NCBI GenBank assembly: GCA_949948735.1
Contig: CATLGV010000012.1
Span: 1-64,000 of the forward strand
Origin: an uncultured Lachnospiraceae bacterium
GTDB taxonomy: Bacteria; Bacillota; Clostridia; Lachnospirales; Lachnospiraceae
Length of the DNA stretch: 64,000 bases
Direction of reading: 5' to 3'
Position numbers and translations under genes: made by a program. The notes under the pieces were generated by a model, which did no database searches, was not told where the DNA came from, and worked only from the letters and a program-made list of their open reading frames with translations. Positions 5,225-34,049 of this stretch are shown here, in pieces; within the stretch, counting starts at the first letter, position 1; each line of letters begins with the position of its first letter.

Positions 5225-5422
5225 TTACGATATGATTTCAATTTCATCCCAATTTCCACACCTTCCTATTTTTTCCATATACTTAGCAAATCCAACTCCT
5301 GTTTCGTCGTTAATTATCTCCTCCCATACAGTATCACATTCCTCGCAAATGTATATTTTCTTATCTACATCCTTAATTTTTGCTCTTAAAACCATACCAC
5401 ATTCACAATATGGACATAACAT
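5225..5422 (-). CDS. Small zinc-ribbon protein, candidate immunity to the main Rhs toxin
   Basis: This 65-aa protein carries two CxxC-type pairs (CPYCECGM near the start, then CEECDTVW at about residue 26), the pattern of a compact zinc ribbon, followed by an acidic C-terminus. It starts with ATG behind GGAGGTGGAAGTAG, 18 nt after the stop of the VgrG-Rhs gene. That is exactly where the immunity gene of a polymorphic toxin is expected. I do not recognise a named immunity family. Alternative: an unrelated small zinc protein carried by the cassette. The immunity role is inferred from position only. Confidence 0.6.
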   Translation of the reverse strand: MLCPYCECGMVLRAKIKDVDKKIYICEECDTVWEEIINDETGVGFAKYMEKIGRCGNWDEIEIIS

Positions 5423-5440
5423 CTACTTCCACCTCCATCT

Positions 5441-8400
5441 CTATTGTACAGGAAATACAGTCACTATATTGTTAGAATAACCATCTGTAATAATTCTAAT
5501 AGAAGTTTCTCCATTAGCACCTACTACTCTTCCCATATCAATTTCGTATTTAACATTACCATTTCTTTGCATTATTCCTTGTCCTTTATTTACCCATGCC
5601 TCATCTATTAATCCAATAACCTGCGACTTATCTACATTATACATAGTATGGGTAGGTTTACTTGGATCAGGTTGAGTATGTGCAATTACATGTTTCACTC
5701 TATTTCCATGTATTGAACCTTGACCGTATATTAATCCTTCATTGCTAGTCCATGTTCCATCTCCATTATATTTTAATGCATTAGGGTTGACGGTGTTACT
5801 ACTACTCTCACTACCATCCTCTCCGCCAAAATGCTCCCGTGGACACTCACCACTTGGCTGTGTCGCTTTCCCCACATACCCACTCGGATCCCAATACGTC
5901 ACCGGATTATTCTTGCAGTACGCGTACAGATTCAACCCATCTCCCTGATAGGTATCCTCCTGCATAAACCGCCCAAGCACAGGATTATAGTACCTTGCCC
6001 TCAGATAATACTGCCCCGTCAGTTCATCATACTGCTGTCCCGTGTAACGGATACGGTTCGGGAGCTGCTCTTCTACTTCTGCTTCTGCCCCGAATACGTC
6101 ATACTGGTAGCTATTGTAGACCTGACCATCCGCCCCTGTGATAAAGGCGGTATTTAGCTGCTCATCCCGATGATAGTAATAAATTTCCTTCCCTCTTTGG
6201 AATGCGCTGGTTCCTGCGCCTAAATGATAGCCTGTCTGCTCTTCCTTTCCTCCTTCCTCATGCAGAAGCTCTCCGTTGTAGTATACGAAGGCGGTTCTGT
6301 TTCCGTTTTCAAGCAGTTCAAACCGCAGATTTTCCACGTCATAGCGGTTCTCCTGCACGTCGCCGTTTTCAGTCTTAACCTTTGTCTGCTGATGGCGGCT
6401 GTTGTAGGAAAACAGGCGAATCCCGGATGGATTCTTCTCTTCCATTATACCGCCCTGACAATCGTAAGTAAACTGTCTTTCACCTTCTGTTCCGCATTCT
6501 TGGGTCAGCTGGTTTTTCTCATTGTAAAAATAGCGGATTTCTCCCTGCGCATCTGTCTTTCGGATACGGTTCCCCGCCTTATCATAGGCATAAGAAACAG
6601 AAGTGCCGTTTCGCCGCTCTTCCAGAAGCTGTCCGTGTATGTCATACTGATAAGTTACATCCAATGCAATACATTGCATTGCGCTGCTTCCTTCTGTAAT
6701 GCTGCCTGATGTTACATCTGCCAGATTCCCCGCTTTCGCTATCCGGTTCCCGTTGCCGTCGTAAGCATATCTCAGGGATAACAGGGTCTTATCCGTCATT
6801 CTTGTCCCGAGGCTGACGATATTTCCGTCCGCATCATAGGTATAGGCTGTCTCCACGCCGTTGCCACAGCGGATATGGCTGATACGGTTCAGCGCATCAT
6901 ACTTGTAGCGCACTTCCATGCCGTTGTCATTGTAGATACGGCTTCTGCGGCCTAAAATATCATACTCATACTTTGTGCATACCCCTGCGGGGTCTTTGAT
7001 CTCTGTCACCTGTCCTGCCTTGTCATAGGCGTAGGAAATCAGGCGTTTCCCGCTGGAACGCTTTTCTTTCAGGTTTCCGTATGTGTCGTATATGTACTCA
7101 TACGAGTGCCCGTCACAGACGGCGCGGACAACTTTCCCGAGGCTGTCATAGTGCCAGGTGCTGATCGTGGGATTTTTCCCGTCCGCATCCGTGGCCTTCT
7201 CATATATCGGTTGTCCGAATACGTTGCAATCCCGCCTTAGCTGTCGGCCGTCCCTGTCGGTGTGCAGGGCAAGATTCCCTTCCTCATCGTACGCAAAGGT
7301 TTCGGTATATCCAAGCTGGTCAATGCGTGCGCAGACCTTACCGAGGCTGTTGTAATGGTATTGTATGATGTTGCCGTTGCCGTCAATGGTTCTGCTGACC
7401 TGTCCGGCAGGCGTGTATTCATACCCTTCTTTTACGCCGTCCGCAAAGCCGATGCCCGTGATCCTGCCCCAGCTGTCGGTATCGTAGGATATTTTATTGT
7501 GATTGCCGTCGATAATGCCGACAATCTGGCCTCTGGCATTGTATTCATACTGCTGAACGGTACGTTGTCCTGTCCCTCTGCCGTTCCCGCGCCGCACGTC
7601 CTTGATCTGTCCGTCCGCCTCGTAGGCAAGCTCTGTCACGGCTCCGGATATATCGGTCTGTGTTATCGGCTGATTTTTCAGGTTATAGGTATTCTCCTGC
7701 ACCAGCTCTCCCAGCGCATTCGTGACGCGGACACGGTTGCCCCTTCTGTCATAGGCATAGGCTGTCCCCACGCCGTTGTCGATCTCCGGCTCGTAGGCAT
7801 AAGGGCTGACCGTTTTTGTGAGCTTATCATTCCTGTCATAGAGATAACGCAGAACCGCGCCGCTGGGAGTCCTCCTGCGGGTCAGGCGGTCTTTGAGGTC
7901 ATAGCGCAGCGCTGTCTCCATGTGTTCCCCGTCTTTGCCGAGGACGGTCTGTTTGATGATGTTTCCTGCCTCATCATAGGTATACTGTGTCCTGCGGTCA
8001 ATACCGTTCTTTACGTCAAGAATCCGTTCTTCCGTCAGGCGGTCGTCCGCGTCATATTCCCTGCGGATTTCAAAGCCCTTGGGTGTGACAGTCTTAATCA
8101 GGTTGCCGTTGGCGTCATAGGTGTAAGAAGTGACAGATTTGTCAGTTTCGCCATTGCCCTGAATCTCCTCTGTACGCTGAATACACCAGCCATTTTTATT
8201 GTAGGTATAATGAACAATGCTTCTGATGTCTTTTTCTATGACGCGTTCTGCCAGCATTACATTTCCCAGACAGTCATAGTCATAGCGCACCTGCGCGCCA
8301 AAATCGTCGCGCACCAGTGTCAGGTGATTGTTGGCGTCATAAGAGAAACGGATTGTATGCCACTCCTTCGGCTCCCCGTCCTTCTCTACCTCCTGCATCC

Positions 8401-11400
8401 CGTAGGATTCTTCTGTTTTATTGCCCTGAACATCATAGGAATAAGCAATGACGCGGTACAGAGACTTCTCGGTTTCTGCCGCGGAACTGTCTCCTGTCCC
8501 GGCTTCGCTCACCTTTACCCGTTCCCTGACTTTTACCTGCTCCCTGACCTTCCAGCCAAGCGCATTATAGGTATAAAGCGTCTCCCCGCCTTCTCCGTCT
8601 GTCTCTCTTACGACCTGTCCGTTTCCGTTGTACGCATATGTATGCAGTACATTCCCGTCAGGGTCGCATACTTCTGTCAGCCGTCCGCAGGCGTCATAAT
8701 CATAGCGATACCCCGCCCCGTCATCGGTATTTTCATCATACGCCTCCGGCTGTACCTGCTTTATCATATTTCCATCTACATCGTAGAAGCGCCGCTCTGT
8801 GCCGCCGTCCGGATACCGGATGCGGATACAGTTGCCGTCCGCGTCGTACTCATAGCGAGTTCCCTCTCCATCGTCGCCCTTTTCCGCATAGCTGACCGGA
8901 TGAAGCTTGTTGATAACATCCCCGTCAAAGTTGCGGAACACTCTCTGGTGTGTCCCCGTCGGAGAGATGGTATCCACCACCCGCTCCAGAAAATCCCGCC
9001 GGTACTCATAGCCGCCTTCCTTCTTTTCCCACTGTACAGGCGGATAATACGCTGTCAGGTTGCCCATGCGGTCATAGAATTTATGGCTGGTATGACCTTC
9101 CCCGTCCGTGCGGCTGGTGACAAAGTTCCGGGAGTTATACGCCATCTCCACCGTGCCGTAGGTGTTGCTGATGGACAGTCTGCGGCCGACAGGGTCATAG
9201 CTGTAGGCGGTCTCTTCCCCCTTGGGGGTGGTGACGCGGCTGGGATGGACGTGGTTCGTTTCGTATTCTTTCAGGGTCCTGTTGCCGAGCGCATCCTGCT
9301 CCACGGTGCATCTTCCCATGGAATCATACTCTTTTTGAGTCTCCCGCCACTTCCCGTCGGATATTTTCTCTCGAATTAATATCTGATTATGCTGTTCATC
9401 ATAGGTATACAGGCTCTCCCTGCCGTCGCTATCCCATGTGCGGACGAGGTTATTGTCCGCGTCGTATTCATGGCGCACTTCGTAGCCGTCCGGGGCGGTT
9501 TCCCGGATGGCGCGTCCCAGAGCGTCATACGCCCACTCTTTTTTATGGCCTGACCGGCTGATTTCTCCGATTTTCCTGTTATCGTCGGAGTATTCAAATA
9601 CTTCGCAGGTGCCGTCGTCGTATGTGATTCGCTCCTTTAAGAGCTGGTCGTTGTACGCATAGATTTCCGTTTTTCCGGTCTCACTGTAATAAATGGTATT
9701 CCTGCGGTTTGCGTCGTCATAGGCAAAGGTCTGGTATACGCCGCCGGGGAAGCCCTGACGGGTGATCCTGCCTTTTTCGTCATACGCGTTCTCGATATAG
9801 CGGCTGCCGTTCTGGTCGGTGACGGAGATAATGTGTCCGTTTTCGTCATACTCATAATGAGTAATGCCTTCATCTGTATGCACCACGTCAGTCAGGTATC
9901 CGCCTGCGTAGCGGTACTGCATCCTGCGGCCGATTTCGTCCGTCACCTGCACGATGCGTCCGTCCCGGCATTCCACTTCCAGCACGTTGCCTGAGGGCGT
10001 GGTGATGCGCTCAAGGCCCTGATCATTATAAGAGAGCTGCAGCCTGAGATTATTGGGATACGCCACATACGAGAGCCTGCCCTCTTTGTCGTAAGCGCAG
10101 AGGGTATGCTCCACCGCGTCTGTAAGCAGGTATACCGCCTGCTCTGAACCCCCGGCAAGTTCCGCACAGCCAGCGTCCTCCGCATAGTCGTCATCCTGCA
10201 CGCAGCAGGCAGTTTCCCGCACCGTGAGCGCAAAGCGGGCCGTTCCCTTAGACTGGTTCACCCAGAGGTCTCTCTGCTTTTCAAAGCACACAGAATGCCC
10301 TGTGATGGTCTCCAGATGGACGCGGAGGGTTTGCGTATCCTGCGTATCCCGGTAGATTCTGCCTGCATAGGGGAAGCGCCAGCCCCTGCCGAATACGGAG
10401 TCTTTTCCGTCTGTGGAGTGGTAAGTCCTTTCCAGCTTCCATGCTGCGGGCAGGCCTGCCAGCAGGAAGTCCGTGGCGTGAATCACATAGGCGCCTGTGA
10501 CGGCGTCGACAGGGTCGGCGACAAAGGCTGCAAGGGAATTGGCGAACGCGTTGCGCGCGAGGCTTTCCTTCCAGTCGAAGGGCTGCCCGGTCAGGGAGCT
10601 TATAAGACCGTCAAGCCCGGTGTCGACAATAGTGCCCACAAAGGCCTGTGTGAGCCTGCGCATGGCGGGGCTGTTCAGGTTCATCATGTCCATGATGCCG
10701 TCGGTGATTCCGGTGCCGGCATATCCCTGCAGGAAGCCGACGCCCATGTTAATCAGCAGGTTCGCGGGGTCTATCCTGCCGGTCTCTACATACTGCCTGA
10801 AGCCCGCGGAAGCGACGTTCCCGGTGATCTGGAGGACGGCCTTGAGCCTGCACAGCTTAGGGCTGTCGCAGGCCATCCCGAGGATGCCTGCCGCTTTGGT
10901 CATCTTTCCGATGATGCTGCCGGACACAATGCCGAAGGTGATGTCGAGGGCCAGCTTGACCACCTCATAGAGCCAGTCGTCCCCGTGGCAGAGGGTGTCA
11001 CGCACAAAGTTGTAGCTCTCGTCGAGGCTTCCGCTGCGCGCCGCGCGGACGTTCGTGATTCCCTCCATGAGTTCTGATTCGCCGACAACGACGATGCCTC
11101 CCGCCGTCGCCCCGGTCAGCACGATCATAACGACGGTCTTGACGCCCGGGACGAGCGGCGCGCCGACTCCGCTTGCCGCCAGCACGACGGTGACGGTGAG
11201 CGTCGCAGTAACGGCCAGGAGCTTCGTAACGCCCTCCACGATCTGGCCGCGTCCTTCGATGTACTTGTCCACCAGCTTCTGCTGTGCCTGGTCATTGATG
11301 TTTTTTCGCATCTGCGCGTCGTTTGCTGCAAGCCGCAGCGAGATCTCCGCCCAGCTGTTGGGGGACGCAACGGGCGTCTGGTCCGTGGCGTTGAGCCGGA

Positions 11401-12871
11401 CGAAGGCCGCGATGATTCTTGCCTCCTCCGTCAGCTCGACCTGCGCGCCGTCCTCTCCGACACGGAAGGTCAGGATGCCGGGCGCGCTCCCGTCCGCTCC
11501 CGGTGCGGACGGCGTGGCAGCTGCCCCGGACGGGCCGCCTTCCGCGCCCTCATCCGCTTTCGTTCCGGCCCGCATGACCACTGCCCCGGCAGGGAGGCCG
11601 CCTTCCGCGGCAGGTTCCCCGAAGGCCAGGTTCCTGCCTGTTATCTTGATCTCCGTTCCCGCGATCATCGCGTTTCCCTGCGCGTCCAGCGACACGCAGG
11701 CCATCGCTTTACTGTCTGAGCGCAGCGACGCGGAGGAGGGCGTCAGCAGCAGCTCCGCGCCGTCCGTGTTGGAGAAGGATTTGTATTTCGGATCCTGCGG
11801 CGTGCACGCGGTACGCACCGCGTGTACCGCCACGGCGTCCCGCTCGTCGTCGCTGGGGAAGTAGATATGCACGCGGCTTCCCTTCTCCGGCATGCAGTAG
11901 ATGAAGCTGCTCTCTATCGCGTAGGCGAAGTATCTCCCGTTGGGGCACGCGTCATACTCCGGGTCGATGTCGAAATGCACACGCACGCAGCTTCCGGCGC
12001 GCTCCTTTACGGTCGCGGGGATGCTCATCCCGAAGATGTGCGGATTCTTCCTGGGCGGGCAGACTGTCCCCTTCCTTCTCCTGAGCGCGTAGCGGCGCAC
12101 CAGCTCCCCGTCCACGGTGCGGTAGCTTATCCCCGCGACGATGGCGCTGACGCCGTTGAAGCGCACGCCCTGTCCGAGGGGGAGGTCGCAGCGCGCCTGC
12201 GCCTCCCAGCCGGTGTGCTCCTGCGGCAGTACGTCCAGCAGGCACCCGGCCCGGTACCAGCCGTCCATGTCCTTTGTCTCCGTGCAGGCGTCCGCCTCCA
12301 GGACGTACTCCTCCCCCGTCTCCGGTATCCCGAAGAAGGCGCGGCCGCACTCCGCGCTGCAGTCCGGCACGAGGAAGGTCCCGAAGCGGCTTGCGAGGCG
12401 CATGAGGAACGCCCAGCCGCTCTCCTCGTACTGGAGCAGGAAATCGGGGATCACGGCCCCGTCCGTCACGCAGTCCATGATCTCCGCGCCCGGATACGGC
12501 GCCAGCACCCTGTCCATGACTTCGCGGTAGGCTGCGTCCAGGTTGGTGAAGCTGCGGCTTTCGGGCACAAGATCCCATTCCATGGTATGGGAGAGCGCGG
12601 TCAGCGCCAGCAGGCACAGGCCTTTTTCCTGTATCATGCGGACGCCGGTGATTCTGCCGGCAAACAGCATCCGCCCGTCCGCCGCGCGGACTGTGACGCC
12701 GTCCCCGTCGGCCGTCTCATGGATGGCCGGCGCTGTCCGTTCCTCCTGCGCGGTCAGGACAAGCTCTGCCGATACATGGCTGTTCAAGGCGGCGTCCAGC
12801 GCAAAGCTCTCCACCGCGGTCACGCCTTCCAGCGGGAGGCTGATTTGCAGTCCCTGATATGTAAGCTCCAT
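5441..12871 (-). CDS. VgrG-like spike fused to Rhs/YD-repeat toxin shell
   Basis: This 2476-aa fusion starts at MELTYQGLQ (AAGGAG, 6 nt upstream). Residues 1 to about 480 are a VgrG / phage late control D-like spike, with QYEESGWAFL matching the two separate VgrG-like proteins and a gp5-like OB and beta region after it. Hydrophobic segments follow (about 547-605 and 640-667), as in the pre-Rhs region of Rhs effectors. The Rhs part starts near 787 (DPVDAVTGAYV), continues through many YD repeats, and ends at WDPSGY (about 2330). The last 144 residues are the variable toxin. Their GSIHGNRVKHVIAH, DEAW and C-terminal VTVFPV resemble BECR-fold RNase toxins of polymorphic systems, possibly the Ntox35 type; I am not certain of the family. 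The likely role is delivery as the spike tip, with release of the toxin inside the target. A small immunity candidate follows at once. Confidence 0.9.
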   Translation of the reverse strand: MELTYQGLQISLPLEGVTAVESFALDAALNSHVSAELVLTAQEERTAPAIHETADGDGVTVRAADGRMLFAGRITGVRMIQEKGLCLLALTALSHTMEWDLVPESRSFTNLDAAYREVMDRVLAPYPGAEIMDCVTDGAVIPDFLLQYEESGWAFLMRLASRFGTFLVPDCSAECGRAFFGIPETGEEYVLEADACTETKDMDGWYRAGCLLDVLPQEHTGWEAQARCDLPLGQGVRFNGVSAIVAGISYRTVDGELVRRYALRRRKGTVCPPRKNPHIFGMSIPATVKERAGSCVRVHFDIDPEYDACPNGRYFAYAIESSFIYCMPEKGSRVHIYFPSDDERDAVAVHAVRTACTPQDPKYKSFSNTDGAELLLTPSSASLRSDSKAMACVSLDAQGNAMIAGTEIKITGRNLAFGEPAAEGGLPAGAVVMRAGTKADEGAEGGPSGAAATPSAPGADGSAPGILTFRVGEDGAQVELTEEARIIAAFVRLNATDQTPVASPNSWAEISLRLAANDAQMRKNINDQAQQKLVDKYIEGRGQIVEGVTKLLAVTATLTVTVVLAASGVGAPLVPGVKTVVMIVLTGATAGGIVVVGESELMEGITNVRAARSGSLDESYNFVRDTLCHGDDWLYEVVKLALDITFGIVSGSIIGKMTKAAGILGMACDSPKLCRLKAVLQITGNVASAGFRQYVETGRIDPANLLINMGVGFLQGYAGTGITDGIMDMMNLNSPAMRRLTQAFVGTIVDTGLDGLISSLTGQPFDWKESLARNAFANSLAAFVADPVDAVTGAYVIHATDFLLAGLPAAWKLERTYHSTDGKDSVFGRGWRFPYAGRIYRDTQDTQTLRVHLETITGHSVCFEKQRDLWVNQSKGTARFALTVRETACCVQDDDYAEDAGCAELAGGSEQAVYLLTDAVEHTLCAYDKEGRLSYVAYPNNLRLQLSYNDQGLERITTPSGNVLEVECRDGRIVQVTDEIGRRMQYRYAGGYLTDVVHTDEGITHYEYDENGHIISVTDQNGSRYIENAYDEKGRITRQGFPGGVYQTFAYDDANRRNTIYYSETGKTEIYAYNDQLLKERITYDDGTCEVFEYSDDNRKIGEISRSGHKKEWAYDALGRAIRETAPDGYEVRHEYDADNNLVRTWDSDGRESLYTYDEQHNQILIREKISDGKWRETQKEYDSMGRCTVEQDALGNRTLKEYETNHVHPSRVTTPKGEETAYSYDPVGRRLSISNTYGTVEMAYNSRNFVTSRTDGEGHTSHKFYDRMGNLTAYYPPVQWEKKEGGYEYRRDFLERVVDTISPTGTHQRVFRNFDGDVINKLHPVSYAEKGDDGEGTRYEYDADGNCIRIRYPDGGTERRFYDVDGNMIKQVQPEAYDENTDDGAGYRYDYDACGRLTEVCDPDGNVLHTYAYNGNGQVVRETDGEGGETLYTYNALGWKVREQVKVRERVKVSEAGTGDSSAAETEKSLYRVIAYSYDVQGNKTEESYGMQEVEKDGEPKEWHTIRFSYDANNHLTLVRDDFGAQVRYDYDCLGNVMLAERVIEKDIRSIVHYTYNKNGWCIQRTEEIQGNGETDKSVTSYTYDANGNLIKTVTPKGFEIRREYDADDRLTEERILDVKNGIDRRTQYTYDEAGNIIKQTVLGKDGEHMETALRYDLKDRLTRRRTPSGAVLRYLYDRNDKLTKTVSPYAYEPEIDNGVGTAYAYDRRGNRVRVTNALGELVQENTYNLKNQPITQTDISGAVTELAYEADGQIKDVRRGNGRGTGQRTVQQYEYNARGQIVGIIDGNHNKISYDTDSWGRITGIGFADGVKEGYEYTPAGQVSRTIDGNGNIIQYHYNSLGKVCARIDQLGYTETFAYDEEGNLALHTDRDGRQLRRDCNVFGQPIYEKATDADGKNPTISTWHYDSLGKVVRAVCDGHSYEYIYDTYGNLKEKRSSGKRLISYAYDKAGQVTEIKDPAGVCTKYEYDILGRRSRIYNDNGMEVRYKYDALNRISHIRCGNGVETAYTYDADGNIVSLGTRMTDKTLLSLRYAYDGNGNRIAKAGNLADVTSGSITEGSSAMQCIALDVTYQYDIHGQLLEERRNGTSVSYAYDKAGNRIRKTDAQGEIRYFYNEKNQLTQECGTEGERQFTYDCQGGIMEEKNPSGIRLFSYNSRHQQTKVKTENGDVQENRYDVENLRFELLENGNRTAFVYYNGELLHEEGGKEEQTGYHLGAGTSAFQRGKEIYYYHRDEQLNTAFITGADGQVYNSYQYDVFGAEAEVEEQLPNRIRYTGQQYDELTGQYYLRARYYNPVLGRFMQEDTYQGDGLNLYAYCKNNPVTYWDPSGYVGKATQPSGECPREHFGGEDGSESSSNTVNPNALKYNGDGTWTSNEGLIYGQGSIHGNRVKHVIAHTQPDPSKPTHTMYNVDKSQVIGLIDEAWVNKGQGIMQRNGNVKYEIDMGRVVGANGETSIRIITDGYSNNIVTVFPVQ

Positions 12872-12897: not shown

Positions 12898-13710
12898 TTA
12901 TTCCGGCTGTCCGGACAACAGGATGGTAATCTGCCCGCCGTAGTCGCATCTGAGGGTGCATCTGCGCATCAGCACAGGCTCCCCGTTTACAAACACCTTC
13001 TCATGCCCCCGCTTCCACTGCGTCCCTTCCGGAAAGCTGGGGGTGCATTCGCCCATGCATTCCTCCATCAGGCTGTCCGTCACCTCGACCGTTCCGCCGC
13101 CGCAGAAGAATTTGACGATTTTGTCAACCACGGTGTTTTCCTTCGCGATGGCTCTGTTCGCTTTCTGGGCCGCATCCTCCGCGGCAGCCTTGAGCGTCGG
13201 GTTTTCCAGGCTGCGGCAGCCGCCAAAGCTGGGGATGTTCATCCCCGGCTTGACATCCCCTGTCGTCAGCTGGGGCAGCTGCCAGGTATACACGCCGTGC
13301 GTGAGCATCAGCAGGATATAGCTGCTGCGCATACCGCAGGTGCACTCGATACGGGCGCAGTACACCGCAAAGCTCGTATCCGTCCGCGCCGTCAGGCGCA
13401 GCAGGTTTTTTCTGGTCTCTACGGCCTCCTGCGCCTTCTGCGCCGCCTCCGTGGCCGCGGCCAGCTCCTCTTCGCAGCGCGCGGCGTCCGCCAGCGCGTT
13501 CTCCAGCCCCTGCGCCGCCGCGTTTGCCATTGCCTGCTCCTGCACATCGCTGCCGTCTCCGTATATATATTTATTCATTTTCTCATAATACACGTCCTGT
13601 ACGGCGTCCTTGTGCGCTACCGCCGCCTGATAGGCCTCCTGCGCCGCCCAGTAATCCTGATACGCCTGATTGGCCGTATTCTCCAGTTCGCTCAGACTGA
13701 TGCTGTCCAT
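12898..13710 (-). CDS. DUF4280 PAAR-like spike-tip protein
   Basis: This 270-aa protein has a long Ala/Glu-rich coiled-coil N-terminus (about 1-105). A DUF4280-type domain follows: CTCGMRSSY, HGVYTWQLPQL, NIPSFGGC, and a C-terminal CDYGGQITILLSGQ. DUF4280 proteins are PAAR-like and are thought to cap VgrG spikes; the conserved cysteines probably bind a metal. It ends 26 nt before the VgrG-Rhs start, which supports a role as tip or adaptor for that spike. The N-terminal coiled coil is unusual for a bare PAAR protein and may contact the cargo. Confidence 0.8.
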   Translation of the reverse strand: MDSISLSELENTANQAYQDYWAAQEAYQAAVAHKDAVQDVYYEKMNKYIYGDGSDVQEQAMANAAAQGLENALADAARCEEELAAATEAAQKAQEAVETRKNLLRLTARTDTSFAVYCARIECTCGMRSSYILLMLTHGVYTWQLPQLTTGDVKPGMNIPSFGGCRSLENPTLKAAAEDAAQKANRAIAKENTVVDKIVKFFCGGGTVEVTDSLMEECMGECTPSFPEGTQWKRGHEKVFVNGEPVLMRRCTLRCDYGGQITILLSGQPE

Positions 13711-24184: not shown

Positions 24185-24476
24185 GCCTCCCGCTCCCATC
24201 TGCATCCTCTGTTTCTTGTCTGTGTGTCTTGTCTCTGTGTCTTATCTCTATTCTTTATCTCTGTACCTTGTTCTCGTATCTGTAGTTGCTACCGTGCCTT
24301 ATTCCTGTGCCTGTATCTGCGTTCTTATTCCTGCAACTGTTCCTGTATCTGTAGCTGCTATCGCGCCTTATTCCTGTGCCTGTATCTGCAGCTGCTCCTG
24401 CGGCTATTCCTGCGCCTTATTTTTATTCCTGCGGCTGCTCCTGCGGCTATTCCTGCGCCTTATTTTATCCCTATTC
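24185..24476 (-). repeat. Degenerate purine-rich tandem repeat between operon genes
   Basis: About 290 bp separate the PP2C-TPR gene from the ATPase gene. On the minus strand the region is built of imperfect 36-60-bp units around GCGCAGGAATAGCCGCAGGA and shorter GATACAGGCACAGGAATAAG pieces. The first units repeat the last codons of the upstream gene (GCG CAG GAG CAG CCG). Stops occur in all forward frames, so it is non-coding. An apparent long opposite-strand frame here is a composition artefact. Confidence 0.7.
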
Positions 24477-26174: not shown

Positions 26175-27017
26175 TTATGCCTCCAGCCTCTGTATCAGGA
26201 TGACGCTCCCGTTGTCCGCCTGCGCGTCGTTTCTGCCGTCCGCCTCGTCCACAATGCGCGACGCCAGTTCCCCGGGCGGCGCGTTTTCAATCAGGATATC
26301 CTCTATCTCGCTCCAGGACAGTTCTTCGAAAATGCCCCTGCTAATAAGCAGTACCTTATCCCCCTGTTTCAGTAATACAGGCTCCTCACAGACCTCAATC
26401 TCGCAGAAGCCGTCCCGTCCAAGATAGTTCCATATCCTTTTCTCCTCCGCGCTCCAGAGGGCGTCCTGTCTGGAAATCCTGCCGTCCTCATAGGCCTGCG
26501 CTGCCAGCACGTCCAGGGTCTGCCCCCTGCTTAAGGGGATGACCTCGTCCCCCCGCAGGAGGGCCACACGCACGTCTCCCGCAACCGCGTAATAGAGGTA
26601 TCTGTGATTCAAAAACACGGCTCCCACGCTTGCGCCGCCCCTGCGCTCGCCCACCGTCCGCTGAATCCGGCGGCTCGCCTCCAGAAAAGCGGATTTCAGA
26701 AAATAGAGCGGGTCGTTTAATTCATAATAGGGCTCAAACCGGTCCAGAATGGTATCCGCCGCTATCTGCGCGCAGACCGCGCCCGTATTGGCGCTGCCGA
26801 TTCCGTCTGCCAGCACGGCCATTGTCCCGGCGCTGTTGCGCCACGTCTGGGCCACATCCGCCTGCACCTGGCGGCTGCCCGTCGTCTGGGCGATGCCGAT
26901 TCCCGGCATTTCCTCTCCCGCGCAGGCCTTATTGCCCCAGCCCAGCAGGCAGCGGCAGAGAAATAACAGGACATACGCCGCGCAGATTCCTGCCAAAGCC
27001 AGCATGCCGCCTGTCAT
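26175..27017 (-). CDS. Membrane-anchored PP2C-family phosphatase-like protein
   Basis: The start at MTGGMLALAG (27017) overlaps the upstream stop as ATGA, with GGGGAGAT upstream. The 280-aa protein has an N-terminal membrane helix (about 5-24), then a PP2C domain: LADGIGS (69-75), VAGDVRVALL (145-154), LLISRGIFEEL (223-233) and ADNGSVILI (267-275). The ADG and DN metal ligands remain, but the SDG aspartate is replaced (SRG), which would weaken the second metal site. In T6SS loci PP2C proteins (PppA) oppose a kinase acting on an FHA protein; two FHA genes are adjacent here, but no kinase is in the window. Confidence 0.75.
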   Translation of the reverse strand: MTGGMLALAGICAAYVLLFLCRCLLGWGNKACAGEEMPGIGIAQTTGSRQVQADVAQTWRNSAGTMAVLADGIGSANTGAVCAQIAADTILDRFEPYYELNDPLYFLKSAFLEASRRIQRTVGERRGGASVGAVFLNHRYLYYAVAGDVRVALLRGDEVIPLSRGQTLDVLAAQAYEDGRISRQDALWSAEEKRIWNYLGRDGFCEIEVCEEPVLLKQGDKVLLISRGIFEELSWSEIEDILIENAPPGELASRIVDEADGRNDAQADNGSVILIQRLEA

Positions 27018-27511
27018 TTCAGATCTCCCCAGGAGAAGTTCTTGCCGCATAAGGGCAGGAACAGAAACCTGCTCTGCCCTAAGCTGATGGTGTCATACGG
27101 GTTTAACTCCGTCGGCACATAGACCGGCTTATCGTTCAGATACGCAATCCCCGCGGAATCTCCCGGAAGAATCATGGTATTGAGGTTCTTGGGGTCATAG
27201 ACGATGATGGTATGGTTTTTGCGGTCGATTTCATTATCGCCCAAAATCTGCACGTCCATGTCGTCGCCCCTGCCCACAAAATTCTTACCCTCGTGGAGCT
27301 TATAGTCCATGCCGACCCTGGCCCCCTCGATGCAGATCAGCCATCCGCACACGGGTCGGACCGTTTCCTCCAAAATCTCCACGGGAGGCTCAAAGCCCAG
27401 CGGTTTTTCCGCAAACGCTTCATCCGGCGTTTTCATGTTGCAGTATGGACAGATTTTCCCGTAGCGTCTGGGATTATAAATATGTCCGTTCGGACATTTC
27501 GCCAAACCCAT
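27014..27511 (-). CDS. Zinc-ribbon + FHA domain protein
   Basis: This 165-aa protein starts with a zinc ribbon (CPNGHIYNPRRYGKICPYC, residues 6-24) followed by an FHA fold (about 75-155; NFVGRGDDMDVQI, NEIDRKNHTIIVYD, and DTISLGQSRFLFLPL). The glycine-arginine and asparagine-histidine spots of FHA phosphothreonine binding are recognisable. It is probably a cytoplasmic phospho-peptide reader that links signalling to the apparatus. It overlaps the PP2C gene by 4 nt (ATGA), implying coupled translation. Confidence 0.8.
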   Translation of the reverse strand: MGLAKCPNGHIYNPRRYGKICPYCNMKTPDEAFAEKPLGFEPPVEILEETVRPVCGWLICIEGARVGMDYKLHEGKNFVGRGDDMDVQILGDNEIDRKNHTIIVYDPKNLNTMILPGDSAGIAYLNDKPVYVPTELNPYDTISLGQSRFLFLPLCGKNFSWGDLK

Positions 27512-27602: not shown

Positions 27603-28175
27603 TTATGTCAGAAGCAGCTTTGTATTCGCTATATACAGAATATCCCCCGCCATGACCCTGCAGGGGCGGTGTATCACCTTATAGCACTCTCCGTCCTCTA
27701 CTTTTCGTACCTTTACGCCGTTCTGGGAGCCCAGATCCTCGATATACCACTGGTCCAGACAGAAGTTCAGCACAGCATGCTGAAAGTCGATAAAACTGCT
27801 GTATTCGCAATCGGACAGGTCGATATCCAGCTCCTGGTCCTGCCCCGCCTTCCCGATAATCTGGGACACCTTTCCATGCAGATCCCAGGATCGAATCGGC
27901 TTTCCAGCCTCGTCCAGCAAAATCAGCCGCTCGATTTTATGGCCGCGGTCGGCCTCCGGTTCGTCCCAGACAGGCTCCGCCTCCCTGCCGTCCATCGGCC
28001 GGAAAAGGTCGCACAGCACCCATACCATTCCGATGACCACTATCGCCAGAAGCGCCGGCATAATGCGCCATCGCCCCGCTTCCTTAAAAATACAGTAAAC
28101 CGCTCCCATGCCGCACAGGAGAATGAATACGTCCAAAATCTGCTTAATTCTTCTTCCCGTTTCTTCCCGCCGCAT
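27603..28175 (-). CDS. Membrane FHA-domain protein
   Basis: The start at [12 protein letters not shown] (28175) is preceded by GGAGG and AAGGGAA; it overlaps the J-domain gene by 32 nt in another frame. The 190-aa protein has two membrane helices near 13-28 and 35-55 ([10 protein letters not shown]..., [16 protein letters not shown]), then an FHA domain (about 95-190) with [29 protein letters not shown] and [15 protein letters not shown] is the usual FHA asparagine-glycine motif. It likely docks phosphorylated partners to the membrane. Confidence 0.75.
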
Positions 28176-28656
28176 TTCCCTTCTTTGCCTCCTGCATGTT
28201 TCCCGTTCCGAAAAAGGCCGCAAACACTTCCTCCGGCCGGATGGGCCCTTCCGCCTTTTTTGCTTTCGGATCCCGATAGGTCTCCATCCCCCTGCCCGGC
28301 TGGAAGCCGAAAAAGCGCTCAAACCGCCCCATGTCAATCCGTCCGTCTGTGGACGGCTGCTGTCCGTTCATGGACGACTTCCTTCCGTCTTCGAACGGCT
28401 CCCCGCCGCCTGCCGCGTCCCTGCCGTGCGCTGCCCTCGCGGAACTTTTCAGGCACTCCGCGTCATATTTTCTGCGGCGCTGCTCATCCTCCAGACACGC
28501 GTAGGCCTCCTGTATCTCGTACATGCGGCTTTCCTTCTGCCTGTCGCCGTTGATGACGTCGGGATGATACTGCTTTGCCAGCTTACGGTATGCTTTTTTG
28601 ATTTCCTCCGGCCGCGCCTGCCTGTCCACGCCCAGTATCTTATAATAATCTTTCAT
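28144..28656 (-). CDS. J-domain protein (type III DnaJ-like)
   Basis: The start at [11 protein letters not shown] (28656) sits behind GGCAGGCGGCAG. The 170-aa protein has a J domain at 1-65 with the HPD motif ([10 protein letters not shown]) and then a low-complexity, charged tail without the Gly/Phe-rich linker or zinc fingers of DnaJ itself. It lies in the same operon as the Hsp70-fold ATPase (21689-24184) and is probably its stimulating partner. The tail contains [13 protein letters not shown] and ends in a Lys/Asn-rich stretch. Confidence 0.85.
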
Positions 28657-28753: not shown

Positions 28754-29182
28754 TTATCCGACGCTGTAGCCGCCCTCGACGGTCACCTGCGCCATCTTGT
28801 CCTTCTTCTGCTTCAGAATCAGCGTAAACGTGCCGATGCCTTCCACATCCCCGTAGGTCTCCTTGTAATCCACAACGAACGCGTTGGGATATGTATACTT
28901 GCGGACTACCTGTGAAGCCGCGATCACTTCCACCGTGACCTTGCGGTAGCAGTCGGAATTTTCCGCCGGAACCAGCGCCCATAAGCCAAGCTGCTTTGTC
29001 CCGTCAAAGGGGTCCCCGTCCACTGCCGTCAGGATCTTGCCCGTGACCACCACGGTGCTCCCCAGATCCGTAGACCTCGCATTGCTGTCCTGCGGAATGT
29101 CCGTGCGCACCTTTACGCCGGTAATGCTGGTCGTACCCAGCTCAATCGTAGTGCTTCCCTCTACCTTTAAAGTAAATCCCAT
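28754..29182 (-). CDS. Hcp-like tube protein candidate 2
   Basis: This 142-aa beta-rich protein shares about half its residues with the next gene up, including SITGVKV, NARSTDLGSTV, DCYRKV, PNAFVVDYKE and LKQKKDKMA. Small paired beta-barrel proteins directly after a sheath-like gene are typical of Hcp/gp19 inner-tube subunits, and the length is close to that family. No signal peptide. The assignment rests on size, context and predicted strand content; there is no diagnostic motif I can point to. Start behind GGAGGAATCATATC. Confidence 0.6.
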   Translation of the reverse strand: MGFTLKVEGSTTIELGTTSITGVKVRTDIPQDSNARSTDLGSTVVVTGKILTAVDGDPFDGTKQLGLWALVPAENSDCYRKVTVEVIAASQVVRKYTYPNAFVVDYKETYGDVEGIGTFTLILKQKKDKMAQVTVEGGYSVG

Positions 29183-29256: not shown

Positions 29257-29685
29257 TTATTCCCCGCTGAAGCCACCCTCAAACTTCAACCCGGCCATCT
29301 TGTCCTTTTTCTGCTTGAGCAGAAGGCGGAACGTACCCGCGCCGGTCTCATCTGTAAAATCCTCTTCATAGTCCACCACAAAAGCGTTGGGAATGGTAAT
29401 CTGGCGCACAATCTGAGACGCGCTCACCACGTCAATCTGCACCTTCCGGTAACAATCAGCCTTTTCCGCCGCAACCAGGGACCATTTCGCAAGCTTGCTC
29501 GTGTCATCCGCCGCCTCGCCGTTCACAGCCGCCAGAATCTTGCCTTCAATCCATACCGTCGAACCTAAGTCCGTTGACCTAGCATTGGAATCATGCGGAA
29601 TGTCCGCCCCAAACCGAATGCCGGTGATGCTCGTCTCCTTTAACCTGACAGACTCGCTTCCTTCAATGCTCAATCGTACTCCCAT
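29257..29685 (-). CDS. Hcp-like tube protein candidate 1
   Basis: This 142-aa paralogue of the protein at 28754-29182 has the same landmarks (SITGIRF, NARSTDLGSTV, DCYRKVQI, PNAFVVDYEE, LKQKKDKMAG). It starts behind AAAAGGAGGAAACAAAG, the strongest ribosome site in the operon, as expected for an abundant structural subunit. It lies 41 nt after the sheath candidate. Two differing tube genes could build a mixed tube, or one could be a terminal ring. Confidence 0.6.
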   Translation of the reverse strand: MGVRLSIEGSESVRLKETSITGIRFGADIPHDSNARSTDLGSTVWIEGKILAAVNGEAADDTSKLAKWSLVAAEKADCYRKVQIDVVSASQIVRQITIPNAFVVDYEEDFTDETGAGTFRLLLKQKKDKMAGLKFEGGFSGE

Positions 29686-29726: not shown

Positions 29727-31895
29727 TTATTCAGTTCCAGCTTTTCTTGTAAGCTGTACCTTCAGATTTTTTGTCGTGTTGGCAAAGGTCACCAGCACGT
29801 CGCAGATTCCGTTCTTCTCGTCGATGCTGTAATCCAGCTCGTCCCCATCCTGAAGAATGGAATTCACATACTGCTTCTCCGCGTCCCAGACGCTTTTCTG
29901 GCTGTTGGGATTATTGCTGAAAAAGGTCAGTATCTTATCCTGCTTGAAGTCCCCGCTGTAAAACCGCAGCATCCGCTCGATATAGGTCGCCACAAGGGTC
30001 TTGTATATGGGCTCAAACTCGTTCCCGTTGCTCAGCAGGTTGCGCGCCTTATACACCGTTATGTTTTTGATGTTCCGGCCCTTGTACTGCGCGTTGTCCG
30101 ACGAAAATACAAAGCCGAAGCCGGTGCGGTTGATGGCATTCTTGATCGCGTTGGTAAAGCCGGAGATTTCCTTTGTCATGCTGGTAGCCGCCAGAAGCGC
30201 GTTGTCATTGGCCTCCACGTCAAACCGCACGCCGGGATAATCCATGCTGGTATTCCGGAAGCGCTGCTTCAGGTATTCCGGGCACTGCCATGCCGCCACA
30301 ATCCCGGCCGCCTCGTAGGCCGCGCCCACATAGACGCCCTCCAGCCACATCTTCATCACGTCGTCCTTCTCCGCGGAGAGGGCCACGTTCCCTTCCTCGT
30401 CCATCACCATTTTTTTATCCAGCACCAGACCGGACTTGTCCTTGGGGATAATGGTCGCGTTGGGGATGCAGGGCACCGCGAACTCGCTGTACGACTTCTT
30501 CATCAGCGGCGCGCATTTGTCCTTGTAAATATTGATTCCCTCTGTCGCAACATAATTAAAGGTGGACTCTTCGCCGGAGCAGAAGCTGAAAAAGGTCGTA
30601 ATCCGGTAGGGCTCGATGGCGTTCATCAGGGTCGCCACGTTTTCGACCGTATTGTTGCCGCGCTTTTCCTCCTGCCGGTTTCCCTCGAAACGGATCCGCT
30701 GCAGCCTGCCGCCCTCTGTCTGGTTCAGCTCCACATCCGGCACAATCCCGAACCAGAGGGTATTGTCAAACTCATTCTTGTCGTTCGTCGTGTTCAGATA
30801 AGCAATCAGCCGGGGCAGGTTGCTGGCCTTTACCATCATCTCCAGCGGCAGATTTGTAATCAAAAGCCTTGGCTGCATCCCTTTTTCCTTGACCTGATAC
30901 TGGTCGAAAAAGGTCTTGACGCCCAGCATCTTTTCCATCAGTGGCTTCACCACCTTGACGAAATCGTCCTTGCTCTTCTTATAAAATTCCAGATAGCTGT
31001 TATAATTGCGTACCTCCAGCTCCCGGTCGACGCTGCTCTCCATGGTGGAGCCCAGCGGACAGAAGGTCCGCACCACCAGATCCCGCACATAATCGGACTG
31101 GTTCTCGTTCAGCGCGTCATAATCCTCCCGGAAGGTCTCCATCAGGCTTGTGTTGACCTGGTCGTCCACCACCGCAAGCTGGGTGCTCTCCTCCTGCTTC
31201 ATCTCCAGGATTTTTAACTCGCCGTCGTCTCCCATGCTCAAGAGGCCCGCCTTAAATTCCGCCTGCCCCTGCCCGGTCTCGTTATCCCCCAGAAGCAGCC
31301 GGGTCTTGATATCCTCTATCGCCAGCGGCAGCATGGCAAGCACGTTGTTGTAATTCTGGCTTGCCTGCTCAAACTGGTAATTCAGCTTATCGCCCATATC
31401 CAGCCGCTTGGGGTCTCCCTCCTCCAGCTCCATATACTTGCCGTAGGTATACTGGATCTCCCGGCGCACCTGGCGGATGTCGTCCATGATTTTCTTCGGG
31501 GAGATCATCTCCAGAATGTTGCCAAACTGGAAGTCCACGTTCGCCACGCCCTGCGCGTCCCTTGCGCCCATAAGCGTGATCAGCATGTTTAACAGGTCGT
31601 TGGACTCATTGAGCGGGATTTCCGTAATGCAGTTTGCCGGGATGTTTTCCGGCTTTACCAGGCTGTACTGGATGCTGCCGGTCGCGGCGTCACACCAGGA
31701 ATACACCACCGGCGTAAACTTCTCCAGAAATTCCTCAAAGCTTGAGACCAGCAGTTCCTCGTTGATTTCCTTCATCTTGTCGTCGTCCAGGCTGCTCTTT
31801 CCCCGCACGTCCCCGATCAGGGTCAGCAGGTTTAAGCGCTCCGGGTTGACCTCGGCAAACAGGATTGTCCTGTTTGTCTGTGTGATTGTCTCCAT
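29727..31895 (-). CDS. Contractile sheath candidate (TssB/TssC or phage sheath-like)
   Basis: This 722-aa soluble, acidic protein has a length close to TssB plus TssC combined. The second half carries sheath-like features: SMDYPGVRFDVEAND, MTKEISGFTNAIKNAI, YIERMLRFYSGDF and a C-terminal strand-turn-strand (DVLVTFANTTKNLKVQLTRK) like the handshake arms of sheath subunits. It starts behind AAAGGAGGAACTGACAGCC and is followed at once by two tube candidates, the order seen in contractile tails. I infer sheath from size, context and fold feel; a profile search would decide. Confidence 0.6.
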   Translation of the reverse strand: METITQTNRTILFAEVNPERLNLLTLIGDVRGKSSLDDDKMKEINEELLVSSFEEFLEKFTPVVYSWCDAATGSIQYSLVKPENIPANCITEIPLNESNDLLNMLITLMGARDAQGVANVDFQFGNILEMISPKKIMDDIRQVRREIQYTYGKYMELEEGDPKRLDMGDKLNYQFEQASQNYNNVLAMLPLAIEDIKTRLLLGDNETGQGQAEFKAGLLSMGDDGELKILEMKQEESTQLAVVDDQVNTSLMETFREDYDALNENQSDYVRDLVVRTFCPLGSTMESSVDRELEVRNYNSYLEFYKKSKDDFVKVVKPLMEKMLGVKTFFDQYQVKEKGMQPRLLITNLPLEMMVKASNLPRLIAYLNTTNDKNEFDNTLWFGIVPDVELNQTEGGRLQRIRFEGNRQEEKRGNNTVENVATLMNAIEPYRITTFFSFCSGEESTFNYVATEGINIYKDKCAPLMKKSYSEFAVPCIPNATIIPKDKSGLVLDKKMVMDEEGNVALSAEKDDVMKMWLEGVYVGAAYEAAGIVAAWQCPEYLKQRFRNTSMDYPGVRFDVEANDNALLAATSMTKEISGFTNAIKNAINRTGFGFVFSSDNAQYKGRNIKNITVYKARNLLSNGNEFEPIYKTLVATYIERMLRFYSGDFKQDKILTFFSNNPNSQKSVWDAEKQYVNSILQDGDELDYSIDEKNGICDVLVTFANTTKNLKVQLTRKAGTE

Positions 31896-31921: not shown

Positions 31922-32029
31922 TATTTTGAATCAGGACAGTATTTTAAATCAGAACATCATTTTATATCAGGGCAGTATTTTGAATCAGGACAGTGTTTTA
32001 AACCAGAACAATATTTTATATCAGGGCGA
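31922..32029 (-). repeat. Six 18-bp units (two 54-bp copies) at the 3' end of the vWA gene
   Basis: The minus strand carries six 18-bp units of the type CTGTCCTGATTCAAAATA, organised as two 54-bp blocks. The last unit contains the final codons and TAA of the vWA gene, so the array is a multiplied copy of that gene end. Unit length is a multiple of three, so the vWA frame stays in register through the array. Confidence 0.8.
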
Positions 32030-34049
32030 CGTAATGGATTTCCAGGTCGTAATCGCCGCCCGGCGACGTGATATAGATAATATCGCCGAAGCTCACGCTG
32101 TACTGTATCTGCATGCAGGCAATCGCGTTCCCGACCATCACGCCCGATTTGGATCTGTGATATAAGATCATGCTGCGGTTTTCATCCGCGATCAGGAAGA
32201 TGTCCTCCAGCTGCAGCGCCGCCGCCTGCTTCGGATATGCGCCAAAGAGATCCCCCAGCGACACCCTGCCGTCCTTCACCTTATTCATCTGGAACGAGAG
32301 CGGCGGTATCTCTTCTTCGCCCTCCGGCTGCAGGATAAAATACGCGTCCAGCTTCCCGCTGAAATGGTTCTGCTTTTTTTCCTCCGTCAGGCGCTCCAGC
32401 TCCGGTTTCGGCTTATGCAGAAGCTTCCACAGAATCAGCGCTGCCGCAAGTACAATCAGCACGGGCGCCCACCAGTATATCTGCCACAGCGGTATCACAC
32501 GGACACGGTGGACATACTGCACCGCGCTCTCCCCGTCGCTTACCTGTACCGCCACGCTGTAGGTTCCCGTCTTTTGGGGCGCGATTGTCAAGAGATTCCC
32601 CTCCAGCCGGATGCCGATATTCTCCGGCGCGTCTGTAATCGAATAAGACAGCGCATCCCCGTCCGGATCCGTAAAATAATCATCCAGACAGAGCGTCCAT
32701 TCATCCGTCAGAACCGTACAACTGTCCTCGGGAATATGCCCCTCCGGCATGGCGTTTGTTACCTCTATCTGCGTGGAAAATGCAAAGCTGCCAAACTCAT
32801 CCGACAATACGCCGGACAGCGAATAACTCCCGCTGTGGGGAAAGCTTATCGTTCCTCTCAGTATTCCCGCCGACGCCTCCGCCTCTTCCTGGCGCATACG
32901 CGCATCGTCACAGGCAAGCGTCCATGCAAAGGCGCTGTAAAAGCCTGCGTCGCTGATGACGCTGCCGTTTCTGTCCTTAAAATAGACCTGATATTCCAGC
33001 GCTTCGTTCCTGCGGGCGTCAGCCGCAAGCTGCAGCACCGGCGTCAGCCTCCGGTAGCTGACGATATAGACCTCCAGATCCTGCCGCTCCCCTGTTTCCG
33101 AGCGTATCACCACTTCTTTTCCCGCGGCGTCCGCGCCGACGTTTTCTATCTTCCCTACCGCATAATGCGACAGGCCTGTCAGAATGATTTCCTGTCCCCC
33201 GTACCGCACCATGGTCTCTCCCACAGGCTCCGACGAGAGCAGCAGTATATTGACTTCATCTAAATAAGGGGCGTCCAGCACGCATCGGATCTCCTGACTG
33301 CCCCCCGCGTAGGTTCCGCTGGAAAACTGCTGGATCTTATAGGTCAGGCTGTTCTCCAAAATCCCGTACAGCACATGAATCAGGCGTTCCGGCCCCTGGG
33401 CCGAATAGCTTTCCGCCCCTGTTTTCCCTGCTATTTCCTCCAAAACGGCCCTGCTGCCGTCATACCGGCCGAATGCCACTGTATAAATCTGTATTTCTTC
33501 CGCTTCACACCGGCTGACGCACTGCGCCAGCTCCTCATTGGACTGCTCCACGGTGCGCTCACTGCTTTTGGGAAGGTCTGTCTCCCCGTCCGAGATCAGC
33601 ACCATGATTCGGCGGCTGCGGCTCCCTCCCTGGCCCCCTTCCGAGGGCCTCTCTTCTGAGGCGTTCTCCGTGGAAAACAGCTCATACGCGCAGGAAATCC
33701 CAAGCCCGATGTCGGTATCCCCCGAATACGCGATGGCGCTGATTTCTTCTTTTAAGGCTTCCCGCTGCCCGGCGGCTGCTGCCTGCGCCGGCGCCGCATA
33801 GGAGACAAGCTCCTCGTTGTATGCCACATAGCCGATGCGGACGTCTTCGTTCTGGACGGTGTCTATAAACGCCTGCACCATATCCAGGCCCATCCCGGAC
33901 GGGTCGTTTGCTTTCATGGAGCCGCTGCAGTCAATTACAAAAATAATCTCCATGGGCGACTTTTCCGGGATGATTTCTTCTGCGTATACTGTCCGGGGAA
34001 AGAGCAGACACAGTATCACGCAGCAGACCAGCAGTCGTATCTGTTTCAT
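32016..34049 (-). CDS. Membrane vWA protein with FHA-like cytoplasmic tail
   Basis: This 677-aa protein has a signal/anchor sequence (1-23, LLVCCVILCLLFPRTVYAEE), a vWA domain at about 30-215 with an intact MIDAS (FVIDCSGSM), beta-sandwich Ig/cadherin-like repeats (DGDALSYSIT; ETGTYSVAV-like), and a second membrane helix at about 523-545 (WWAPVLIVLAAALILWKLL). A cytoplasmic region of about 130 residues follows with FHA-like features (GRVSLGDLF, SVSFGDIIYI). Topology puts vWA outside and the FHA-like part inside, so it could connect outside adhesion to the intracellular phospho-relay. It is the first gene of the operon. Confidence 0.75.
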   Translation of the reverse strand: MKQIRLLVCCVILCLLFPRTVYAEEIIPEKSPMEIIFVIDCSGSMKANDPSGMGLDMVQAFIDTVQNEDVRIGYVAYNEELVSYAAPAQAAAAGQREALKEEISAIAYSGDTDIGLGISCAYELFSTENASEERPSEGGQGGSRSRRIMVLISDGETDLPKSSERTVEQSNEELAQCVSRCEAEEIQIYTVAFGRYDGSRAVLEEIAGKTGAESYSAQGPERLIHVLYGILENSLTYKIQQFSSGTYAGGSQEIRCVLDAPYLDEVNILLLSSEPVGETMVRYGGQEIILTGLSHYAVGKIENVGADAAGKEVVIRSETGERQDLEVYIVSYRRLTPVLQLAADARRNEALEYQVYFKDRNGSVISDAGFYSAFAWTLACDDARMRQEEAEASAGILRGTISFPHSGSYSLSGVLSDEFGSFAFSTQIEVTNAMPEGHIPEDSCTVLTDEWTLCLDDYFTDPDGDALSYSITDAPENIGIRLEGNLLTIAPQKTGTYSVAVQVSDGESAVQYVHRVRVIPLWQIYWWAPVLIVLAAALILWKLLHKPKPELERLTEEKKQNHFSGKLDAYFILQPEGEEEIPPLSFQMNKVKDGRVSLGDLFGAYPKQAAALQLEDIFLIADENRSMILYHRSKSGVMVGNAIACMQIQYSVSFGDIIYITSPGGDYDLEIHYVALI

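Follow-up and report, generated by a model that had tools for sequence, protein, structure and literature searches.

Papers of 2016 (PMC5349215) and 2021 (PMC8651086) raised the question of a phage-like translocation system in Gram-positive bacteria; the motive was the occurrence of DUF4280 tip proteins in Gram-positives without genes of a type VI secretion system (T6SS) or an extracellular contractile injection system (eCIS). Here we describe an operon of 20 co-directional genes, located on the minus strand between 5.4 and 34.1 kb of a stretch of DNA from an uncultured Lachnospiraceae bacterium (assembly GCA_949948735.1, contig CATLGV010000012.1), that encodes tube-like, spike, tip and putative effector proteins together with a sheath candidate and proteins of phosphorylation signalling. 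Judged from its sequence, the operon is a strong candidate for a T6SS-like contractile injection system that is widespread in Bacillota. The analysed stretch, hereafter the window, covers the initial 64 kb of a contig of 104 kb; the genome measures 3.2 Mb and is 84% complete. Because the closest relatives of the sheath candidate belong to Lachnospiraceae and Acetatifactor assemblies (at most 96% identity), the host is a monoderm gut clostridium.

The operon shares features with several described systems. With the canonical T6SS (T6SSi), for which E. coli HS and eight plasmid-borne clusters served as the yardstick, it has in common a predicted tube of the Hcp/TssD superfamily, a VgrG spike, an Rhs effector and an FHA domain resembling the FHA region of TagH; a PP2C gene is also found in one of the yardstick clusters, that of Pseudoalteromonas. 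Unlike the canonical T6SS, the operon has no Pfam or NCBIfam match to TssJ, TssL, TssM, TssA, TssE, TssF, TssG or TssK, its own genome contains no ClpV-level gene, and the sheath candidate is not recognisable as TssB or TssC by sequence. A TssL profile scored at noise level against the operon profiles, and Pfam TssC (VipB) exceeded its cut-off in none of 398 Bacillota genomes, where it gave one sub-threshold stretch of 30 positions. The comparison with the Bacteroidota TssD/Hcp system (T6SSiii) covered the tube, which matches Pfam TssD and the PDB entry for Hcp1 (6bdc). As in the T6SS of the Francisella pathogenicity island (FPI), a DUF4280 protein takes the place of the classical PAAR tip (IglG, PMC5349215); the Francisella host is Gram-negative, unlike that of the operon, and its T6SS uses ClpB according to the accessible text of PMC5481754. 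The eCIS of Firmicutes, or phage-like translocation structures (PLTS), likewise bring contractile-tail parts to Paenibacillaceae and Clostridiales, and of the set presented in the accessible parts of PMC4122934 and PMC12923769, only VgrG is recognisable in the operon. Pfam searches of the operon genes at an E-value of 0.05 detected no tape measure, gp25, baseplate J or LysM, and Phage_sheath_1 had no match in the operon. The preliminary description of this locus had stated that it fits neither T6SS nor eCIS gene sets, and with TssJLM, ClpV, gp25, J and LysM not recognised in the operon, we reach the same view. The cytoplasmic contractile injection system (CIS) of Streptomyces presumably consists of eCIS-type parts without an FHA/PP2C/Hsp70 operon. 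It resembles the present case as a CIS in a Gram-positive with a membrane partner, to judge from the accessible text of PMC10066040 and PMC12237407. A screen of titles and abstract beginnings found no published description of the operon and no name for the machine. We consider it probable that the operon encodes a T6SS-like, cell-anchored contractile injection system of its own lineage, gated by phosphorylation, in a monoderm. A phage-type tail sheath gene, from a prophage or tailocin, lies outside the operon on another contig of the same genome (L131, G000:C1:219845-220279).

Transcription of the operon starts with the gene for a vWA protein and continues with those for the 722-aa sheath candidate, tube A, tube B, a J-domain protein, FHA2, FHA1, PP2C, PP2C-TPR and an Hsp70-like protein; u447, u249, u257, u204, VgrG2, VgrG1, a pentapeptide-repeat protein, an Imm11-family protein, the DUF4280 protein and a VgrG-Rhs fusion follow. 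The intergenic spacing ranges from -37 to +131 bp with the single exception of a 271-bp gap, in keeping with the tight minus-strand operon described earlier. A terminator-like stem-loop (34313–34336; ten pairs, seven of them GC, with a T tail on the minus strand) marks the upstream boundary. All gene coordinates given below refer to the minus strand.

The best-supported parts are those of the tube, spike and tip. Tube A (29257–29685) and tube B (28754–29182) are proteins of 142 aa each that are 59% identical to one another. Pfam TssD matches the window's tube protein weakly (0.031); across the tube family, 24 of 28 members hit TssD at E-values of up to 0.5 (best 3.2e-5), and any other Pfam family is hit by at most one of the 28. 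Searched against the PDB at E-values of up to 1, the family profile returned Hcp1 (6bdc, 0.022) as its only match, as an earlier profile of 11 rows had done (0.052); against eight proteobacterial Hcp sequences, it scored at noise level (0.077). We assign both tube proteins to the Hcp/TssD-like proteins with fair confidence. The two domains sought in a VgrG spike, Phage_GPD and the OB domain, are present: spike 1 (15222–16625) matches Phage_GPD at 1.6e-15 and Phage_base_V at 4.7e-5, and spike 2 (16638–18035) matches them at 6.8e-12 and, under the cut-off, at 0.0012. A third VgrG-like part forms the N-terminus of a VgrG-transmembrane-Rhs fusion (5441–12871, start set by eye), where Phage_GPD is matched below the Pfam cut-off (2.5e-4); three hydrophobic segments (residues 553–657), an Rhs core (4.3e-24), RHS repeats (3.3e-110) and a C-terminal domain of its own make this protein a probable effector. 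The PAAR-like DUF4280 tip (12898–13710; Pfam 7.7e-21) carries an N-terminal extension. The three VgrG-like proteins, the fused Rhs and the DUF4280 tip named in the preliminary description are thus all recovered.

The same description had expected the cluster, if real, to be unusual for a monoderm; it is no isolated case. A pattern scan of a genome collection yielded 310 candidate stretches that encode relatives of the sheath candidate, found in Lachnospiraceae, Clostridium, Paenibacillaceae and diderm Negativicutes. Counts over loci use the best 80 of these, whose flanks of at most 10 kb leave the far-downstream genes mostly beyond reach; longer stretches were fetched for 12 further genomes. 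The core family genes lie on one strand in 80/80 loci, and FHA1, FHA2, PP2C and PP2C-TPR are each present in 78; the two loci without them are on short contigs (6.6 and 4.3 kb). Among the far-downstream genes, the two VgrG profiles were found in two loci and one locus, u204 in three, and DUF4280, Imm11 and the pentapeptide-repeat gene in none. VgrG is present in the fetched stretches of 8 of the 12 further genomes.

Genome-wide searches show which genes travel with the sheath candidate. A first search detected the sheath in 13/398 Bacillota genomes, and a profile search of the same 398 placed u249 in the identical 13 (nominal Fisher 1.2e-24), even where the two lie on different contigs (G382, G312) or about 190 kb apart (G339). 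Within the host's own family, the sheath occurs in 13 of 200 genomes, the window's included; in the class of G248, 34 of 300 genomes match the G248 sheath. Of 25 sheath-positive genomes, 24 encode DUF4280, 23 of them with a match that exceeds the Pfam cut-off and G380 with one at just 1.4e-4; of 40 sheath-negative genomes, which are those listed in the 398-genome and 200-genome searches, 3 encode it. The nominal Fisher value for this association is 1.7e-13, with genomes that are not independent. Orthologous operons lacking spike genes would, by the preliminary description, have refuted its reading; the VgrG and DUF4280 counts do not refute it.

A tree of 48 of the 80 loci, the window and two further genomes (G380, G248) separates two clades. 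The main clade (49 rows) unites Lachnospiraceae, Clostridiaceae, Peptostreptococcaceae, Paenibacillaceae and others with diderm Selenomonadaceae and Sporomusaceae. Clade II is a deep, long branch with G380 and G248 (26–28% identity in the sheath; 26% to the window's); it keeps the sheath, tube, VgrG, u447, u249, the Hsp70/SrfB-like protein, u257 and a DUF4280 protein whose gene has Imm11 as a neighbour. We estimate that the set shared by both clades constitutes the core machine; in the main clade, the phosphorylation module would act as a regulator. Three clade II loci (L035, L036, L037) contain further Hsp70/actin-like genes (by eye and by one weak Pfam match), a vWA-like open reading frame (ORF; by eye) next to the Hsp70/SrfB gene, as well as a DUF4280-AHH nuclease-like protein. 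In Propionispira and Pelosinus (L083, L086), the same operon stands in diderm Negativicutes, with no envelope gene of note in the 4 kb upstream of the sheath; one machine may thus work in cells with one or two membranes. A Clostridium beijerinckii strain and a Brevibacillus also carry the locus.

This distribution bears on the possibility that the cluster is a defective prophage remnant or a chance gene assembly. The operon has a higher GC content than the stretch at 38–44 kb, which favours such an origin, and Rhs and VgrG genes are mobile. Against it, the operon genes have open frames and stand in an order that different classes share, and no sheath relative was detected in viral contigs (by a pattern scan, which finds close relatives only) or in phage and plasmid records (by tblastn to 1e-3). 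Since the locus is conserved, we regard this explanation as refuted for practical purposes.

The assignment of the sheath is the central question. The 722-aa protein (29727–31895) is proposed for this role, possibly as a TssB–TssC fusion, on account of where its gene lies, how well it is conserved and a weak TssB-like motif. In 80/80 loci, the tube gene is the family gene that comes next downstream on this strand. The protein is soluble, with no transmembrane (TM) segment in the window's copy and a TM-like segment in 1 of 94 family hits, and it is 57–93% identical to 48 chosen relatives. In loci L018, L022, L026 and L030, the sheath candidate is 56–57% identical to the window's, as compared with 26–35% for u447, 30–36% for u249 and 32–35% for u257; such far stronger conservation is expected of a sheath. 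Profiles were compared using local hhalign over 154 pairs, with nine TssB, eleven TssC and nine phage sheath sequences as references. Residues 118–145 (NVDFkFenlLdMISPKKvmDDIrQvRk) aligned with an F-SLDDFSP-type stretch of TssB; the same residues were matched with three query profiles, and a fourth, from the divergent clade, matched the same TssB stretch. In 120 column shuffles, the TssB score was reached by one and the phage sheath score by none.

Several results weigh against a contractile sheath and against the injector as a whole. Pfam, NCBIfam, PHROGs and PDB sequence searches gave no significant match for the 722-aa protein, and its best PDB profile hits are fragments of parvovirus NS1 (0.017 over 36 residues). 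The TssC score was reached by 91 of the 120 shuffles, and is no better than shuffled. The E-values for TssB (0.027) and phage sheath (0.038) are not significant over 154 pairs, among which the TssB pair ranked only fourth by E-value, after two FHA–TagH pairs and one J–TssK pair. A more diverse sheath profile (47 rows; 22 of 30 loci used) gave no improvement for TssB, with an E-value of 0.13 at the same residues. The phage-sheath alignment shifts from residues 582–680 with one profile to about 209–277 with others; we give this hit little weight because such an unstable position is typical of chance. At the level of the system, u447, u249 and u257 profiles compare with the T6SS baseplate proteins TssE, TssF, TssG and TssK at noise, no dedicated membrane channel protein was recognised in the operon, and the 40 kb fetched for clade II contain no match to the FHA and PP2C profiles, so that FHA/PP2C cannot be a universal anchor. 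Finally, one sheath-positive genome has no DUF4280 (G768) and three genomes have DUF4280 without a sheath (G879, G222, G690). Each of these three contains one strong DUF4280 gene, and G879 belongs to the window's genus.

Three other likenesses were discarded. The NS1 stretch is short and was taken as chance, the J–TssK pair (0.023) is surely chance, and Pfam TssG, matched by 4 of 49 sheath family members (best 0.21), is noise.

Of the sheath- and tube-like genes in the preliminary description, the tube stands and the sheath is not borne out by sequence, no family being significant; the evidence for the 722-aa protein as a sheath is suggestive, a lead rather than proof. It could instead be a scaffold or docking factor, with tube, VgrG and DUF4280 exported by a non-contractile membrane machine. 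A protein that sequence methods do not place, with a TssC comparison at noise and an unstable phage-sheath hit, fits this alternative; a soluble protein, encoded directly upstream of the tube gene in every locus and better conserved than u447, u249 and u257, does not, and we consider it rather unlikely. In one Lachnospiraceae metagenome-assembled genome (L094), a single locus contains two sheath-family genes (724 and 685 aa).

The signalling proteins speak against a released particle. FHA2 (27603–28175, start set by eye) has two TM helices followed by an FHA domain (Pfam 1.3e-7). Its listed ORF starts too early and partly covers the J gene; the later start gives about 190 aa, the size of many relatives. 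FHA1 (27014–27511) is soluble and matches Pfam FHA (6.6e-4, just under the cut-off) and Yop-YscD_cpl (5.3e-7, also under the cut-off), and its profile matches the FHA region of T6SS TagH at 3.1e-4. A PP2C phosphatase of 291 aa with an N-terminal TM segment (26175–27050) passes Pfam PP2C_2 (3.6e-7) and matches NCBIfam Stp1 at 3.3e-18. The 565-aa PP2C-TPR protein (24477–26174), with a PP2C-like domain, a TM segment and a helical/TPR tail, remains under the Pfam cut-off (PP2C_2, 0.0041) and matches Stp1 at 4.7e-19; both Stp1 matches are under the strict NCBIfam cut-off. These results agree with the two FHA and two PP2C-like proteins described previously, as does the vWA membrane protein (32016–34049; Pfam VWA 4.4e-14), which has a signal peptide and one TM segment near the C-terminus (518–536). 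The vWA gene is found in 56/80 loci, on the opposite strand in many Paenibacillus loci, and is a local partner absent from some relatives. Among the window's operon proteins, only FHA2, PP2C, PP2C-TPR, vWA and Rhs have TM segments. By a simple hydropathy scan, TM segments are conserved in 88/88 FHA2, 86/87 PP2C and 86/87 PP2C-TPR family members.

In control of the PpkA/PppA/Fha type, based on threonine phosphorylation, kinase, PP2C and FHA are encoded in one locus. The window provides FHA and PP2C without the kinase, as had been noted; a missing kinase holds for the window, not for the system. Near the operon, 24/80 loci contain a Ser/Thr kinase gene from a single family (Pkinase 7.8e-31); 22 of these loci are from Bacilli and two from Lachnospiraceae, so that nearly all are Paenibacillaceae. 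The gene also occurs in the fetched neighbourhood of 7 of the 12 further genomes, with only a weak relative about 20 kb away in G248. The window's own genome, in which the preliminary description had suggested looking for ClpV or a kinase, contains no ClpV-level gene and four kinase loci, three of them over the cut-off and none adjoining the operon or inside the window. Two of these adjoin a PP2C gene (one by profile, one by eye), and another has no more than 29% identity to the kinases near the operons; none of the four candidates could be singled out as the operon's partner.

Alternatively, the operon could make a lysis-released particle of the eCIS or tailocin type, assembled in the cytoplasm and acting outside the cell, with FHA and PP2C regulating only expression or lysis. 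Classical eCIS (PLTS) are indeed known in Firmicutes, including Paenibacillaceae and Clostridiales, according to the accessible text of PMC4122934, and the 3/40 sheath-negative genomes suggest that DUF4280 may serve other carriers. None of the 20 genes, several of them of unknown function, was recognisable as a tape-measure, tail-fibre, gp25, baseplate J, LysM, eCIS AAA+ or lysis gene, and three signalling proteins with conserved TM segments are encoded inside the operon. Both observations speak against a lysis-released particle, which we regard as quite unlikely.

The chaperone genes offer a possible substitute for ClpV. Of the Hsp70/J pair in the preliminary description, the J-domain protein is clear (28144–28656; Pfam DnaJ 1.9e-23; 75/80 loci), and the Hsp70-like partner is confirmed in part only: this protein of 838 aa (21689–24205; 76/80 loci) partially matches NCBIfam DnaK (1.5e-5), has no Pfam match at 0.05, and has a clade II homologue that matches SrfB at 4.1e-7. 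In the host genome, 84% complete, the best TIGR03345 match scores 821 bits, below the cut-off of 885, and is a ClpB (1322 bits); ClpC is also present. ClpB was rejected as a general sheath recycler: it is over the cut-off in 18/25 sheath-positive and 33/40 sheath-negative genomes (Fisher 0.36). Since 7/25 sheath-positive genomes, one of them only 67% complete, have no ClpB over the cut-off, recycling by ClpB is no general rule here. The operon's Hsp70-like/J pair is a natural candidate for the role.

Three conserved genes of unknown function are candidates for the baseplate: u447 (20362–21705), found in 73/80 loci and in both fetched clade II genomes and without a PDB match at E-values of up to 1; u249 (19609–20358), which is present in 72/80 loci and shares its 13/398 genomes with the sheath; and u257 (18704–19477), a baseplate or adaptor candidate that aligns over both clades and is present in 33/80 loci.

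A T6SS-like injector built from these parts could operate as follows. u447, u249 and u257 would form a baseplate around the VgrG spike, which would be capped by DUF4280 or carry the VgrG-Rhs effector. The TssD-like proteins, whose homology is described above, would assemble into rings that stack into a tube, and the 722-aa protein would polymerise around it as a contractile sheath. In the main clade, it is plausible that the TM-anchored FHA2/PP2C module docks the assembly to the membrane. A Ser/Thr kinase, encoded near the operon in some relatives and elsewhere here, would phosphorylate a partner, to be bound by FHA and reset by PP2C, and this switch would gate firing after translation. Firing of the Pseudomonas H1-T6SS is gated in this manner by a threonine phosphorylation pathway. 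The Hsp70-like/J pair may fold or disassemble the sheath or the effector in ClpV's place, and the C-terminal domain of the Rhs protein would be the probable payload against neighbouring cells.

We see roughly even chances that, beside T6SS, eCIS and tailocins, the family forms a further and separate branch of contractile injection systems at home in Bacillota. In such a branch, sheath and baseplate would have diverged past sequence recognition, the anchor would be built for a single membrane, a kinase/FHA/PP2C gate would control firing and the Hsp70-like/J pair would replace ClpV; it would also be the main carrier of DUF4280 and VgrG-Rhs in Gram-positives. With this locus family come a tube, a likely sheath and regulators, and it tracks DUF4280 from genome to genome, which makes the question of a Gram-positive injector testable in tractable hosts such as the C. 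beijerinckii strain and the Brevibacillus. If the machine contracts, gut and soil may be places where monoderms commonly inject directly from cell to cell, and a cell with a single membrane and thick peptidoglycan must have found a new solution for anchoring and firing.

The remaining genes surround the spike and tip. The pentapeptide-repeat protein of the tip cassette (14229–15218; Pfam 5.2e-14) adjoins Imm11 and DUF4280 in relatives. The Imm11-family protein (13711–14232; Pfam Imm11 4.7e-7) could be an immunity protein or an adaptor. Its gene adjoins a DUF4280-type gene in 8/8 profile-found stretches from both clades (window 13711-14232, L019, L023, L025, L026, L032, L035 and L037), and the protein may serve the tip as an adaptor instead of providing cognate immunity. 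u204 (18049–18663), encoded directly upstream of VgrG here and in L018, L022, L024 and L026, is conceivably an effector chaperone; it has no Pfam match, and the guess of an Eag-type chaperone is thus unsupported by Pfam. Outside the operon, at 1180–4665 of the window, an ORF contains a second Rhs core with a different C-terminal domain and no VgrG part, and is followed by an ORF of 157 aa; together they resemble an Rhs toxin/immunity cassette that has been displaced. A small contig of this genome (L039, G000:C36:1-8001) encodes a second VgrG-Rhs fusion, adjoined by a 507-aa Rhs fragment.

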